A stretch of DNA of 64,000 nucleotides from Thiobacillus denitrificans. Its GTDB lineage: Bacteria; Pseudomonadota; Gammaproteobacteria; Burkholderiales; Thiobacillaceae. The notes under the pieces were generated by a model, which saw nothing but the letters and a program-made list of their open reading frames with translations, was not told the origin of the DNA and ran no database searches. The position numbers and the translations under genes are program-made. Below, piece by piece: positions 17,856 to 23,401 of this stretch. The stretch covers positions 1-64,000 of the forward strand of contig NZ_LDUG01000003.1 of the NCBI RefSeq assembly GCF_001530125.1, written 5' to 3'. The stretch's first letter is position 1. Each line of letters opens with the position of its first letter.

Positions 17856-18890
17856 TCAGGTGAGGTCGAGTTGGGCCACCAGTCGGCGCACCGGCGTGGG
17901 CAGTGCGGCATTGAGCGCGTCAGTCGGGGGCAGCCAAATCTGGCCGGGCCGCGTGATCTGGCGCGGCGCCAGCTGCATCTGGACGGGCTGGATATGCAGC
18001 TTGAAGTGGGTGAAGCTGTGGCTGAATCGCGGCAGCACCTGCTGCGCGAGCGGGGTGAGGCCGAAGCAGTCACGACAGTGGGCGGCCGCGTCGGCGTCCG
18101 GGGTGAGTTCGGGCAGGCTCCACAAGCTGCCCCATATGCCCTGTGCGGGGCGTTTTTCCAGCATCAGCTCGCCCCGGTCAAGCAACAGCAGCATCAGCAC
18201 CTGTTTTTCGGGCAGGATTTTTTTGGGGCGAGGCGTGGGCAATTCGGCGGTTCGATGCTGCGTGAAGGCAACGCAATCGGTGCTGACCGGGCACACCGGG
18301 CAGGCGGGTCGGCTGCGCGTGCAGGCGAGTGCGCCCAGATCCATCATGCCCTGGGTGTAGGCCTCAATGGCGTTGCGCGGAAGATGCGACTCGGCCAGCT
18401 GCCATAGCGCCGTTTCAACGTTCCTGTCGCCGGGCCAGCCGGCAATTCCGCCGTGGCGCGCCAGTACGCGTTTGACGTTGCCGTCGAGAATGGCGCCGCG
18501 CTGGCCGAACGCCAGCGCGGCAATGGCGGCAGCTGTCGAGCGCCCGACGCCGGGCAGCTGCGCGATGATGTCGGCCGCGGCCGGAAATATTCCATCATGG
18601 CTTTCGACTAGGGTGCGCGCGGCGGCATGCAGGTTGCGCGCGCGACTGTAGTAGCCGAGTCCGCTCCACAGTGCGAGCACATCGTCCTCATGCGCGGCAG
18701 CGAGGGCGGGCAGATCGGGGAAACGCGCGACAAAGCGCTCGAAATAGGGAATGACCGTGGCCACCTGGGTCTGCTGCAGCATGACTTCCGATAGCCAGAT
18801 GCGGTAAGGGTCATGGGTAGCCTGCCAGGGCAGGGCGTGGCGGCCATGGCACTGTTGCCAGCGGATGATGCGGGAGGCGAATGATTTCAC
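17856..18890 (-). CDS. mutY: A/G-specific adenine glycosylase MutY
   Basis: Removes adenine mispaired with 8-oxoguanine. The 344-residue product shows EVMLQQTQV, the helix-hairpin-helix LPGVGRSTAAAI, catalytic Asp in ILDGNVKRVLAR, the [4Fe-4S] ligands in CTRSRPACPVCPVSTDC (C-x6-C-x2-C-x5-C), and a C-terminal NUDIX-like 8-oxoG recognition domain. The start is taken at GTG 18890 (MKSFASRIIRWQQ), where family similarity begins; the longer open frame upstream is not MutY-like. Confidence 0.93.
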   Translation of the reverse strand: MKSFASRIIRWQQCHGRHALPWQATHDPYRIWLSEVMLQQTQVATVIPYFERFVARFPDLPALAAAHEDDVLALWSGLGYYSRARNLHAAARTLVESHDGIFPAAADIIAQLPGVGRSTAAAIAALAFGQRGAILDGNVKRVLARHGGIAGWPGDRNVETALWQLAESHLPRNAIEAYTQGMMDLGALACTRSRPACPVCPVSTDCVAFTQHRTAELPTPRPKKILPEKQVLMLLLLDRGELMLEKRPAQGIWGSLWSLPELTPDADAAAHCRDCFGLTPLAQQVLPRFSHSFTHFKLHIQPVQMQLAPRQITRPGQIWLPPTDALNAALPTPVRRLVAQLDLT

Positions 18891-18976
18891 CCCGGCAGAG
18901 TAGCCGGGGTGACGGGGTGAATCAATGGGATGCTCCGCAGGGCGGGATGGAGTCGTATGCGTCAACAACCCCGCGC

Positions 18977-21181
18977 TCAGGCGTGGCCGAGTTTCTGCCG
19001 GAACAGGTTCATCAGCTTGCCGAACGCCGATTCGGTGATGGATTTGCGTTCGACCAGCACCGCTTCGCCACGGCGCAGCTTGTCGGCCAGGCGGAGCTGG
19101 CTGATGGAAAAGCTGTTCATGCCGTCCTGGTCCGAGAACAGGTAGGTGTTCTTGACGCTGCTGGCCCAACCCAGCCGTGCCCAGCGGAAGGTGCCGTCGT
19201 CGTAGTGGAATTCCACCCAGTCGCCCTTGTTCAATGCGCGGGCGCGCAGGTTGAACTCATCCTCCACTTCGGGTGCGGCTTCGGATTCGGGCTCTGACGT
19301 GGCGGCCTCAGCGGCTGTCGGGGCGGGTGCCAGTTCCTCGATTGCTTCGGGCGTGATGTCGGGCAGCGGCACCGGCTGGGCATTGGGACGCACCGCGTTG
19401 GCGTGCAGGATGACCAGGGTGGCGAAGAAACGGTCGGACAGCTTTTGCGGCAGATCGATTTCTGCCACGCCTTCGCGCAGCCGTTTCAGCAATCCGGGCA
19501 GAATGCGCACCAGCATCAGGCGCGCGTCCATATCGGCCTTGGACTGCACGCTCCACACCAGTTCGCGCATGGTTTCGACATGGCTGTTGAAATGCGCGCC
19601 CTGCTCGCCTTCGTTGACGTAATCCAGGGTCAGCAGTTGCGCCCAGTCGCGCCGCAGAAATTCACGCAGGGCGTCCACCACCGGCTGCTCCTTGTTGAGC
19701 GCGCGATTGATGAAGTCGTGCACGATCACCGGCGCGAGCTCTGCGCGCTCGGACTGCTTGATCTGGGCAATGTCCTGCTGCAGGCTGGCGTCGACGATTT
19801 CTTCCAGCGTCTCTTCCAGCAGGCTGCCCATCGCTTCCAGTTCCACGGCGGCGGAATCGAATACAGTGATGTCCTTTTCGAAGCTGTCGAGCACTCGGCT
19901 GACCACTTGCGAAATGGCTTCCAGTCGCGCATTGCCTGCCTCGTTGTCGGGCAGGTGGACGGCCAGCGTGGCGATCGCATCCAGCATGCGGCGGACCGGA
20001 TGATTCGATTGTGAGAAGAAGTTGCGGTCGAGCATCGCCGCCTTCAGCACCGGAATTTGCAGGCGCGCAATTTGCGCCTTGAGATGATCCGGAATGGCGG
20101 CATCATCGAAAACCACATCGAACAGCATCGCCACCGCATCGACCAGCACCGCGTCAAGCGGACTGGCAGCCTGCATCACCGGACTTTGCTGCAGGCTGCG
20201 CAGCACGTTCTGGATGGTGGCGGCTTCCAGCAGGGGGAGTTCGAAACGACCGCCGCCGGGCAGCATCATGGCGCCCGATTTCAGCTGGCCGAGCGAGTCG
20301 AGCAGGCTGAATCCGGCCAGTCCTGCTGACGCGCCGCCCGCCCCCCCTCCCCCCGCTGCGCTGCCGCTGTGCGCCAGTTGCTCGAACAGCTTGAACATGT
20401 CGCCGCCCGTCTGCCCCTGCATGGCCGGGGCCGGACCGGCTGCCCCGGCGCTGTTGGGCGCTGTCCCTTGCGCCCGGCTTTTCGCACCGACCTTGAGGTC
20501 GGGCAGGATGCCGCGGTCGATCAGGTAACGGTTGATGGACTGGTAGATGTGCGCGAGCTCGGTGGTCAGCACCAGGTCGAACTGGTTCAACAGCACGATC
20601 CGGATGGCCTGTTCAAGCTGCATGCGGCTGATGCCATCCAGCAGCGCTTCGCACAATACACGCGGGCCGAGCGGACTGTCGTTTTCGGACAGGTCGGAGC
20701 GGCTCAGCAGATGGGCGATGCGGGCATCCAGGGCGACCAGCTCTTCGGCGCAGTTGTAACGCAGTCGTGAAGTGGCTTTATCGATCACCAGCGTGATTTC
20801 GAAATCCTGGTCGTCCAGCAGGGACAACTCGAGCAGTTCGCCGCCGGCGGGCTTTTCGCGGTTATGGGCAAAATCGTTGAAAGTTTGGCAATACGCATCC
20901 TTGCAGGCGCTCAGCAATTCATTGGCCCGTGTATTGAGGATGCCCTGGGCGCTGTAATACGAATTGCGCGTATCCAGCAACGGCGAACGATCGGCCATCG
21001 CCAGCAGGGTGTTTTCCATGGCCTCGGACTGCCTGGTCAGCACACGGGTCGTGCCCTCGATCAGCAAGTCACGGCAACCGTGCAGAATCGACAGGGCTTC
21101 GGCGGAGACCTGCGCGCGGCGTGAACGCTCAAACTGTTTGAGGTTAACTACGACTGAATTTTCTGGCATTTCGCGCTCCAT
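18977..21181 (-). CDS. DUF1631 family protein
   Basis: A 734-residue cytoplasmic protein of the DUF1631 family, whose function is not established; I recognise the family but can assign no reaction. The N-terminal half is helical and contains LLEGT-like and LDGISRMQLEQAI segments. A Gly/Ala/Ser-rich linker near residue 280 is encoded by long C tracts. The conserved middle (DAVAMLFDVVFDD, LQIPVLKAAMLD, FFSQSNHPVRRMLD) follows. The C terminus has a GDWVEFHYDDGTFRWARLGW domain. ATG 21181 has GAGGTG upstream. The mRNA leader holds a predicted c-di-GMP riboswitch, and a frameshifted paralogue lies directly upstream. Confidence 0.85.
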   Translation of the reverse strand: MEREMPENSVVVNLKQFERSRRAQVSAEALSILHGCRDLLIEGTTRVLTRQSEAMENTLLAMADRSPLLDTRNSYYSAQGILNTRANELLSACKDAYCQTFNDFAHNREKPAGGELLELSLLDDQDFEITLVIDKATSRLRYNCAEELVALDARIAHLLSRSDLSENDSPLGPRVLCEALLDGISRMQLEQAIRIVLLNQFDLVLTTELAHIYQSINRYLIDRGILPDLKVGAKSRAQGTAPNSAGAAGPAPAMQGQTGGDMFKLFEQLAHSGSAAGGGGAGGASAGLAGFSLLDSLGQLKSGAMMLPGGGRFELPLLEAATIQNVLRSLQQSPVMQAASPLDAVLVDAVAMLFDVVFDDAAIPDHLKAQIARLQIPVLKAAMLDRNFFSQSNHPVRRMLDAIATLAVHLPDNEAGNARLEAISQVVSRVLDSFEKDITVFDSAAVELEAMGSLLEETLEEIVDASLQQDIAQIKQSERAELAPVIVHDFINRALNKEQPVVDALREFLRRDWAQLLTLDYVNEGEQGAHFNSHVETMRELVWSVQSKADMDARLMLVRILPGLLKRLREGVAEIDLPQKLSDRFFATLVILHANAVRPNAQPVPLPDITPEAIEELAPAPTAAEAATSEPESEAAPEVEDEFNLRARALNKGDWVEFHYDDGTFRWARLGWASSVKNTYLFSDQDGMNSFSISQLRLADKLRRGEAVLVERKSITESAFGKLMNLFRQKLGHA

Positions 21182-21244
21182 GGGAATCACCTCGCGGTAT
21201 CGGCGGTTGGCTGACCTGGGAACGGGGTGACCTGCGCGTGACCG

Positions 21245-21352
21245 GAAGCTGCCGGCGGTCCCGCTGTCTCGGCCGCCTGCTGCGGGGACTGAGACCGGTA
21301 ACTTTGCGTCCCCGCCTCGCGGCGGGTTTGCCCTGTTCGGTGGTCGGCGATT
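21245..21352 (-). ncRNA. Cyclic di-GMP-I (GEMM-I) riboswitch
   Basis: Read on the minus strand, the leader contains ACAGGGCAAACC, a CGCC-GCGA-GGCG hairpin with a GNRA loop, then GGGACGCAAAG and ACCGG, followed by a second GC-rich hairpin region. The two conserved blocks and the GNRA-capped stem between them match the V. cholerae Vc2 aptamer at nearly every conserved base (core 21300-21336). Downstream there are about 60 bases before the DUF1631 start. The expression platform, and whether c-di-GMP turns the gene on or off, cannot be read by eye. Confidence 0.87.
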
Positions 21353-21387
21353 GTGTCTGAAAGTCGACACACAGCCGCACAATAGAT

Positions 21388-21415
21388 CTATCGGCCGGAG
21401 GTGGAGAAAACTTGA
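21388..21415 (-). promoter_or_regulatory. Candidate FliA (sigma-28) promoter
   Basis: On the minus strand, TCAAGTTT (21408-21415) is followed after 12 bases by GCCGATAG (21388-21395). The E. coli sigma-28 consensus is TAAAGTTT, 11 bases, GCCGATAA, so each half matches at 7 of 8 positions with one extra spacer base. Transcription would begin near 21378, about 25 bases before the riboswitch. Confidence 0.6.
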
Positions 21416-21433
21416 GCGTGCGAATTGAAAATA

Positions 21434-23401
21434 TCAGCCGAGGCGGGTCGACCAGTTTGCTTTCAAGCGTAGCATGGCTTTGCGGGTGAGCGACTGCTCC
21501 GGAATGCGTGCGCGGCCAGCACGTATCTCAGTCGCGAGCCGTTCGCAGCCGAGTGAAACATGGCGCCCGCCAGCGCTGTCGCAGAACAGGAGGTGGCCAT
21601 TCACCCCGACCCAGAGCACGCGCGCGGCCGTCAGGTCCTCGTAAGCCGGGTCGAAATCCACCCAGTCGCCTTCGCGCAACTGCTGTGCCTGTTGCAGGGC
21701 GGAATCATTGGCCGGAGTATCCGCAAACTGGAGAGCGAGCGACGCGATCTGCTCCCGCGAGACGCGGCGCGGCATAAATGAGTTGACCACCCTTTCACGT
21801 TGACCCAGGGCGGGACGAATCCAGCACTCCTGGGTGGCGGTGATGGCGCTGAAAAAGTCCTTCAACTGCGCAGGCTCGGCCCCTTGCGCCAGCAGCCCGC
21901 GCCGCAGCGCGGCGTTGATGGATGGAATCGATTGCAGGCGGGATTCCCGCGTGGCGTCGCCGTCCGGCGCCTGCAGACTGAGAAAAAGCTGTTGCAGGGT
22001 ATGGCAGGCCGCGCGCCAGTCAGGGCCCTCGCCGGATTCGGCCACATACAGCGAGGCCATCTGCGGCACCCAGGCCGCTTGCAGCCGCCGCAATACGGAT
22101 TCCGGGGCAGGGTAGCGTTCGGTCAGGTCATGCAGGTTTTCCAGCGCTAGCAGGGTGCCCAGTTCCTGGCGTTCGATGTGCTCCATCCGCGCCACGTCAG
22201 AAGCCAGCCGGGGATCTGGGCGCGCCGCTTCGTCGGCCAGCCAGGCGGCCAGGCTGGTGTGCGCCTGCGCAAAGGCCTCGGCGGGGGGTGCCCAGGATCG
22301 TGGTGGAGGGCGGCGCAGGCGGCCTGGATGTGCTCGAGCGCAGGGACATGCGAGGCGTCGTGCTCGGGAAAACGGCGCGAGAACTGGCCCATCAGATCAA
22401 TCAATTGGCGTGCCGGGTGCTGATCGGCGCTGAAAAAGTCGGGCGCAACCAGGGCGTCACGGAGGGCCGGGATTTGCAGGTGCGCGATTGCAGCCCTGTA
22501 ACGCGGCGATAGACCCGGGTCGTCGAGGATGAATTCAAACAGCCCGGCGACGGCATCCAGCACTGCGAGATCATGTGCATCGGTGCCGGGATGGTGCGCA
22601 CCCTGCTGCAATTGCTGCAGGATGCGCGCGGGGACGTCCGACGGCGCGCTTGTACTTTGCCGGATCGATTTCGTTCGCCTGTGTGGCTACCGGCTGGATA
22701 TGTTCCAGGATGGCCTGCCCGGCATCGCTTGGCGTGCTCCGGGGCAGAAGGGGAGCTGCGTGTGCAACAGGAAGTTCGGGGATGTCCTGCACACCCAGAA
22801 ACTGATAGAGCGCCGTGTAGGTGTGTTTCAGCGTATCGAGCAGGGGGGCGGCGGCACACTGGAGCAGGAGGGTGCCGCATGGCGAGTCGATGTCCAGCGC
22901 ATCGAGTGCGCGCGACAGCGCGCGCACGACCGGCAGCGGGCCATAGACGTTGGCATGGTCTGCTGGATCTTCCGACGCTGCCCGCCGCACCGCCTGCAAA
23001 CGGCCGAATAGCTGCAACATGTTGGCCCGCAGGACTTCGGTCAGTTGGGCAGCGGACTTTTCTTCTGCCAGTTGTCGCTTGAGCGCGTCGTCGTCCAGCA
23101 GCTGCAGTTCGGCCGGACGGCTGTCATGGCGCAGGGTAAACGCCTCGGGCCGGGCGAGGTGAAGACGGAACTGATCGACAAACGCAGTAGACAAGGCATC
23201 CGGACGGGTATTGAGCCAGTCCAGGCAAGCCTGCCCGGTGGCGATGGCCGAAGGCGTCATCTGCGCCGCAATGGCGCGCAAAACGCTGCCCTGAAGCGGG
23301 GCATGGCTGCGCTGGAAAAAATTGCCCAGCGCCTGCGTCATGCGTGCATCAGCTTCGGATAGCAGCGCAGCAGGAGTAAGGGGAGTCGATTGGGTATTCA
23401 T
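21434..23401 (-). pseudogene. DUF1631 paralogue broken by two compensating frameshifts
   Basis: Three open segments together read as one roughly 655-residue protein related to the downstream DUF1631 gene. The first (from ATG 23401) keeps frame to about 22690-22645. The middle one (ILQQLQQGAHHPGTD, then LDAVAGLFEFILDD and FFSADQHPARQLID) is in a second frame. The last (APPAEAFAQAH onward, ending REGDWVDFDP and LKANWSTRLG) returns to the first. The shift back falls in a run of six G at 22283-22288, consistent with one lost base; the earlier shift looks like one extra base. As given, translation would stop at 22571. Either the gene is dead or there are two sequence errors. Confidence 0.75.

Follow-up and report, generated by a model that had tools for sequence, protein, structure and literature searches.

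A putative c-di-GMP-I riboswitch in the leader of a DUF1631 gene predicted to belong to the FliA regulon in Thiobacillaceae

The stretch of DNA analysed here (hereafter, the window) comprises 64,000 nucleotides of the Thiobacillus denitrificans genome. On its minus strand, positions 18977-21181 encode a protein of 734 amino acids (P0001) that was indeed, as the original prediction had it, a DUF1631 protein, and a full-length one: the PF07793 profile matched residues 26-724 (model positions 3-738 of 741) with 558.8 bits, against a cut-off of 33.7 bits. To our knowledge, no function has been assigned to DUF1631. The gene is preceded by a Shine-Dalgarno sequence, GAGGTGA, at 21187-21193 (-), which is conserved in most of the leaders listed, and the ORF that follows it on the minus strand, at about 17856-19169, presumably encodes the adenine glycosylase MutY, judging by eye. 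Directly upstream of the gene, at 21434-23401 (-), lies a broken tandem copy of the gene, not under the riboswitch described below, which consists of three DUF1631 pieces in different frames that were 82-88% identical to the copy at a related locus (L038). Tandem copies of about 650-755 amino acids were open in 21 of the 37 named loci encoding relatives of P0001; the broken copy in the window may be a pseudogene or an assembly error.

In contrast to the full-length PF07793 match, the PacR family profile (NF058594) matched P0001 only partially and far below its cut-off (138.1 versus 1200 bits). No GGDEF, EAL, or PilZ profile match was found in P0001 (for PilZ, at E ≤ 0.1 over the whole protein and at E ≤ 1 over the last 107 residues), and its identification as a PilZ protein by profile was rejected for this reason. 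The AlphaFold model, of middling confidence, shows two helical parts, one N-terminal and one central (the latter with a single long helix), and a small barrel at the C terminus. This barrel aligned to TraI and to Tudor/SH3-like barrels, with PilZ not among the structures listed. A sequence search for a solved relative of DUF1631 gave none at E ≤ 1, and neither model had a Foldseek match at E ≤ 0.001. Moreover, Pfam profiles identified two further DUF1631 proteins in the same genome (L003, 843-4871 (+), and L004, 214-4047 (-)), of 1342 and 1277 amino acids, each with both GGDEF and EAL domains. At its N terminus, the L003 protein showed a PilZ match below the cut-off (20.2 versus 22.5 bits), and no aptamer was found at either paralogue locus.

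A c-di-GMP-I riboswitch had been predicted in the leader of the DUF1631 gene, and a cmscan search of the whole window bore this out, with a match to RF01051 at 21342-21251 on the minus strand (55.1 bits, E = 4.9e-8, model 1-87 complete) against a gathering score of 35 bits. This was the single RF01051 match found in the T. denitrificans genome (3.29 Mb), and 70 nt separate the 3' end of the aptamer (21251-21342) from the ATG at 21181. The two conserved GEMM-I blocks, the GNRA loop (GCGA), and the ACCGG sequence were all located where they had been described. The further statement that the aptamer resembles Vc2 nearly base for base held for the conserved blocks and the core, which are common to both, but not for the loop, which is GCGA instead of GAAA, nor for the usual tetraloop receptor, whose CUAA strand is missing. 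Thiobacillus aptamers as a group had the GCGA loop and lacked the CUAA receptor strand, whereas the GAAA loop and the CUAA strand occurred together in 13 of the 22 readable family aptamers from other genera. Since the GAAA loop and its receptor are common and not obligatory, membership of the c-di-GMP-I class rests on the score and the core, the columns of which were invariant or almost so across 29 aligned leaders; canonical relatives scored up to 88 bits. A chance match was rejected on the basis of the E-value and of the order-wide arrangement of aptamer and DUF1631 gene.

The 37 named loci belong mostly to Thiobacillus and Hydrogenophilales assemblies, and their proteins are up to 95% identical to P0001. 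A leader was visible in 36 of them (L070 starts inside the gene), and an aptamer above the gathering score was found just upstream of the gene in 34 of these 36. Within the Thiobacillaceae, 105 of the 117 genomes contained an aptamer somewhere and 93 of the 117 a relative of P0001 (E ≤ 1e-20). In the other genera of the family, 30 of the 37 leaders examined held an aptamer, a rate that is not unbiased, since some of these leaders were chosen because they held one. The seven aptamer-less leaders before a P0001-like gene all came from a single genus (g3), and three of these g3 genomes had another DUF1631 gene behind an aptamer (L075, L077, and L084).

In a sample of 399 Burkholderiales genomes, the aptamer was present in 149 and a DUF1631/PacR match in 163. 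At least 48 of the 150 order aptamer sites listed (from 119 genomes) had a listed DUF1631 match within 2.5 kb downstream on the same strand, and these 48 came from 48 genomes and 11 families; the reverse arrangement did not occur among the 150 sites. Both elements were listed for 71 genomes; at least 48 of these had them linked, and no linkage was seen in the other 23. The downstream ORFs, each taken as the longest frame and counted from its earliest start codon, began 85-412 nt after the aptamer start. Nine of the 48 were scanned with Pfam, and all nine encoded DUF1631 (538-626 bits), while GGDEF and EAL gave no match at E ≤ 0.01 in any of them. In families f30 and f40, riboswitch-linked DUF1631 ORFs (L212, L224, L241, and L250) reached 1226-1391 amino acids and exhibited long insertions, and no other Pfam domain exceeded its cut-off in them. 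Overall, the survey of other DUF1631 leaders upheld the proposed association.

Among 369 genomes sampled from the class, 67 had the aptamer, 124 had DUF1631, and 28 had both. Apart from the window genome, adjacency was found in at least one of the 27 genomes with both (G835, confirmed by reading), as judged by eye among the places listed, with no DUF1631 place listed for G652, G861, and G864. In G715 the two appeared close, but no DUF1631 gene lay behind the aptamer. The link appears to be mainly a feature of Burkholderiales, because it is rare elsewhere in the class. On a tree of 80 DUF1631 proteins (58 with the riboswitch and 22 without), the riboswitch label changed 7 times versus 19.6 times when shuffled, and none of 500 shuffles was as low. 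This tree was of a quick kind with long branches and shows clustering only, which near-copies alone can produce; 17 duplicate or edge loci were excluded, and L205-L252 were labelled from the order-wide aptamer search. The riboswitch was absent from the tandem copies in Thiobacillus, from both GGDEF-EAL fusions, and from family f22. The original prediction considered this link to be undescribed, and we found no report of it in the literature searched, where the mentions of DUF1631 include rows of gene tables; the claim holds for that literature, as subscription papers or supplements may hold an earlier mention.

Upstream of the aptamer, we identified a sigma-28 (FliA) element, TCAAGTTT-N12-GCCGATAG, at 21388-21415 on the minus strand (pattern 21389-21415), which matched 14 of the 16 positions of what we take to be the E. 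coli consensus and was conserved in the family. Among 64 unique Thiobacillaceae leaders (five second copies from the same genomes were left out, and the second copy L170 replaces L060), 57 reached at least 12 of 16 positions and 48 at least 13; the element was perfect in L041 and L095 and, in most Thiobacillus leaders, was situated 52-55 nt before the aptamer motif. A strict sigma-28 pattern occurred three times in the genome, including the site in the window, versus one control match. As for the T. denitrificans flagellin genes, one scored 15 of 16 and the other only 11, the element being absent. No sigma-70-like site was found in 21100-21500.

The element accompanied aptamers linked to DUF1631 more often than other aptamers, which seldom had it. 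Sites with DUF1631 reached 12 of 16 in 4 of 13 cases in the order and in 13 of 16 cases in the family, versus 0 of 17 and 2 of 13, respectively (2 of 30 together), for sites without it; one of the 60 loci compared (L104) was not orientable. At two c-di-GMP-I sites of Thiobacillus that lack DUF1631 (L100 and L101, upstream of 1501-1586), the score was 12 of 16, and it is possible that they mark further genes under both FliA and a riboswitch. Order-wide, 20 of 48 leaders reached this score: all of those from families f50 (9 of 9), f30 (6 of 6), f40 (3 of 3), and f1 (1 of 1), one of six from f35, and none of the other 23. Because only these 20 did so, FliA control seems to be lineage-specific, and because only some families have the element, conservation of the riboswitch extends further than that of the promoter. 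FliA itself exceeded the cut-off in 104 of the 117 family genomes and did so twice in the window genome; the two sigma factors above the FliA/WhiG cut-off in G000 are encoded at C48:3889-4551 and C27:127114-127779. Three genomes (G411, G427, and G430) kept the aptamer and the gene with no FliA match over the cut-off, which disfavours strict FliA dependence in them. In the Thiobacillaceae, FliA is the most likely sigma factor for transcription of the DUF1631 leader.

Between this element and the aptamer, a 5' leader hairpin (P0; 21347-21378 (-)) was more stable than its shuffles (mean z of -2.65 over 36 leaders), and four of its eight pairs had both bases changed in at least one of 25 leaders. 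Downstream, a candidate switching hairpin at 21241-21256 (-), which would reuse the 3' strand of P1, was suggested by a local folding signal. The post-aptamer hairpin gave the sole clear signal of the 11 offsets (mean z of -0.86; the others ranged from -0.14 to +0.84). It appeared in two registers across species, and single sequences reached p ≤ 0.05 in just 3 of 30. Predicted access to the Shine-Dalgarno sequence did not change consistently with the switching hairpin in 33 leaders. No intrinsic terminator was found between the aptamer and the ATG, and such a terminator was rejected as the expression platform on this account. One weak terminator-like stem was observed, at 21454-21435, where the upstream copy ends, against an expectation of 0.4 from shuffles.

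Taken as a whole, the prediction for the Thiobacillaceae that a DUF1631 gene of the FliA regulon is under the control of a c-di-GMP-I riboswitch is well supported by comparative evidence, and we hold it quite probable that transcripts of this standalone gene start from a FliA promoter and carry an aptamer that would bind c-di-GMP. As judged from the conserved element, FliA would initiate transcription near 21381, and the Rfam score and core bases point to c-di-GMP binding by the aptamer in the resulting leader. The ligand may then fix P1 and exclude the post-aptamer hairpin, which would need the 3' strand of the same helix, as suggested by folding. Because there is no intrinsic terminator between the aptamer and the ATG, the effect would probably be on translation start or on Rho-dependent termination. 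The last step is speculative: the protein may act in the switch from swimming to settling, most likely by modulating swimming or the c-di-GMP network, perhaps induced as c-di-GMP rises in a swimming cell, either sign of the switch being conceivable. We put this role forward tentatively, and with less than even confidence.

In the core of the window aptamer, GGCAAA and GACGCAAA provide G20 and A47, in what we take to be Vc2 numbering. The GEMM variants were reportedly defined in a 2017 paper, and a variant for another ligand, either c-AMP-GMP or the ligand of c-di-GMP-I-GGC (RF03167), would find an argument in the fact that RF03167 outranked RF01051 in Rfam for 22 of the 34 aptamer-bearing named relatives. 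RF01051 was, however, the match kept for the window, and position 47 is a G in the consensus of RF03167 (GACGCGAA), whereas this segment reads GACGCAAA in the window and 34 intact relatives, except for L073 (GGCGCAAA). The GGC subtype was rejected on the A at this position, despite the Rfam preference. G20 and A47 were moreover present in all 44 readable order aptamers and in all 22 readable family aptamers from other genera, once unreadable rows had been left out (1 of 38, 4 of 48, and 6 of 28); among 37 Thiobacillus reads, A47 was absent from two, L054 (decayed) and L070 (no leader), which were taken as decayed or off-target. The change towards c-AMP-GMP specificity (GEMM-Ib) is G20A (PMC6274999), and the window has G20 and not A20. 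A variant ligand thus appears improbable, and c-di-GMP is the expected ligand of the predicted aptamer, since G20 and A47 are not the variant bases.

It is also unlikely that the aptamer is a relic being lost in Thiobacillus lineages, with the gene simply a member of the FliA regulon. Such decay was observed at L050, L054, and L167, where the promoter element and the gene were kept, and the GCGA loop and missing CUAA strand of Thiobacillus could be read in the same way; yet the window copy is intact, nearly all named loci with a leader scored above the gathering threshold, and the core columns are close to invariant. The leader RNA might itself serve as a c-di-GMP sponge in swimming cells, with the downstream ORF secondary. 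A study of Bdellovibrio describes attack-phase promoters together with a massively expressed c-di-GMP riboswitch RNA, merRNA, and its FliA motif, TTAAG-N16-CCGATA, resembles the TCAAG-N16-CCGATA upstream of the window aptamer, with identical spacing (PMC3627812). The likeness extends to the setting of merRNA in a FliA-dominated motile programme, but merRNA is not followed by a conserved ORF, nor does the table of that source mark it with a FliA promoter (PMC3627812), whereas a DUF1631 ORF closely follows the aptamer in many genomes, and we consider a sponge very improbable.

The FliA-started, c-di-GMP-responsive leader predicted here shares its aptamer family, core, and 5' leader position with Vc1, located before gbpA in Vibrio, and Cd1, located before flgB in C. 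difficile. In these systems, c-di-GMP raises gbpA expression through Vc1 (PMC4744006) and Cd1 is linked to motility (PMC6366702). The window differs from both in its DUF1631 target and in its GCGA loop without a CUAA strand, and from Cd1, which has an intrinsic terminator, in that none was found in its leader. As regards the promoter, yhjH, ycgR, and bifA are FliA-dependent c-di-GMP genes of the late flagellar regulon, for which the accessible portion of the source mentions no riboswitch (PMC5300878). The DUF1631 gene would similarly be a c-di-GMP-related gene placed in that regulon; the products of those three genes, however, are phosphodiesterases or a PilZ receptor, and P0001 has no GGDEF, EAL, or PilZ match. 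As its leader is most likely transcribed by FliA, the protein would be made when the late flagellar genes are on. We favour a late-flagellar modulator of swimming dosed by c-di-GMP, by analogy with the FliA-dependent yhjH and ycgR.

The original prediction also connected DUF1631 with c-di-GMP-dependent motility or biofilm switching. This is supported as a link, and not as a proven role, by the conserved pair, by the sigma-28 element found in the Thiobacillaceae and in three more families of the order, and by the two DUF1631 paralogues with GGDEF and EAL domains. More broadly, and with confidence just short of even, DUF1631 could be an unrecognised part of betaproteobacterial c-di-GMP circuits: a leading conserved target of c-di-GMP-I riboswitches in the order, limited by FliA to flagellated cells in several families and dosed by c-di-GMP, serving as a timed motility brake or adaptor, and having paralogues fused to GGDEF-EAL. 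Riboswitch surveys can give leads to c-di-GMP effectors overlooked by domain searches. The conserved riboswitch and the flagellar promoter element give DUF1631 a testable role, as they name both a signal and a cell state, and the recurrence of the pairing in many related bacteria suggests a part for the protein in the decision of cells to swim or to settle.
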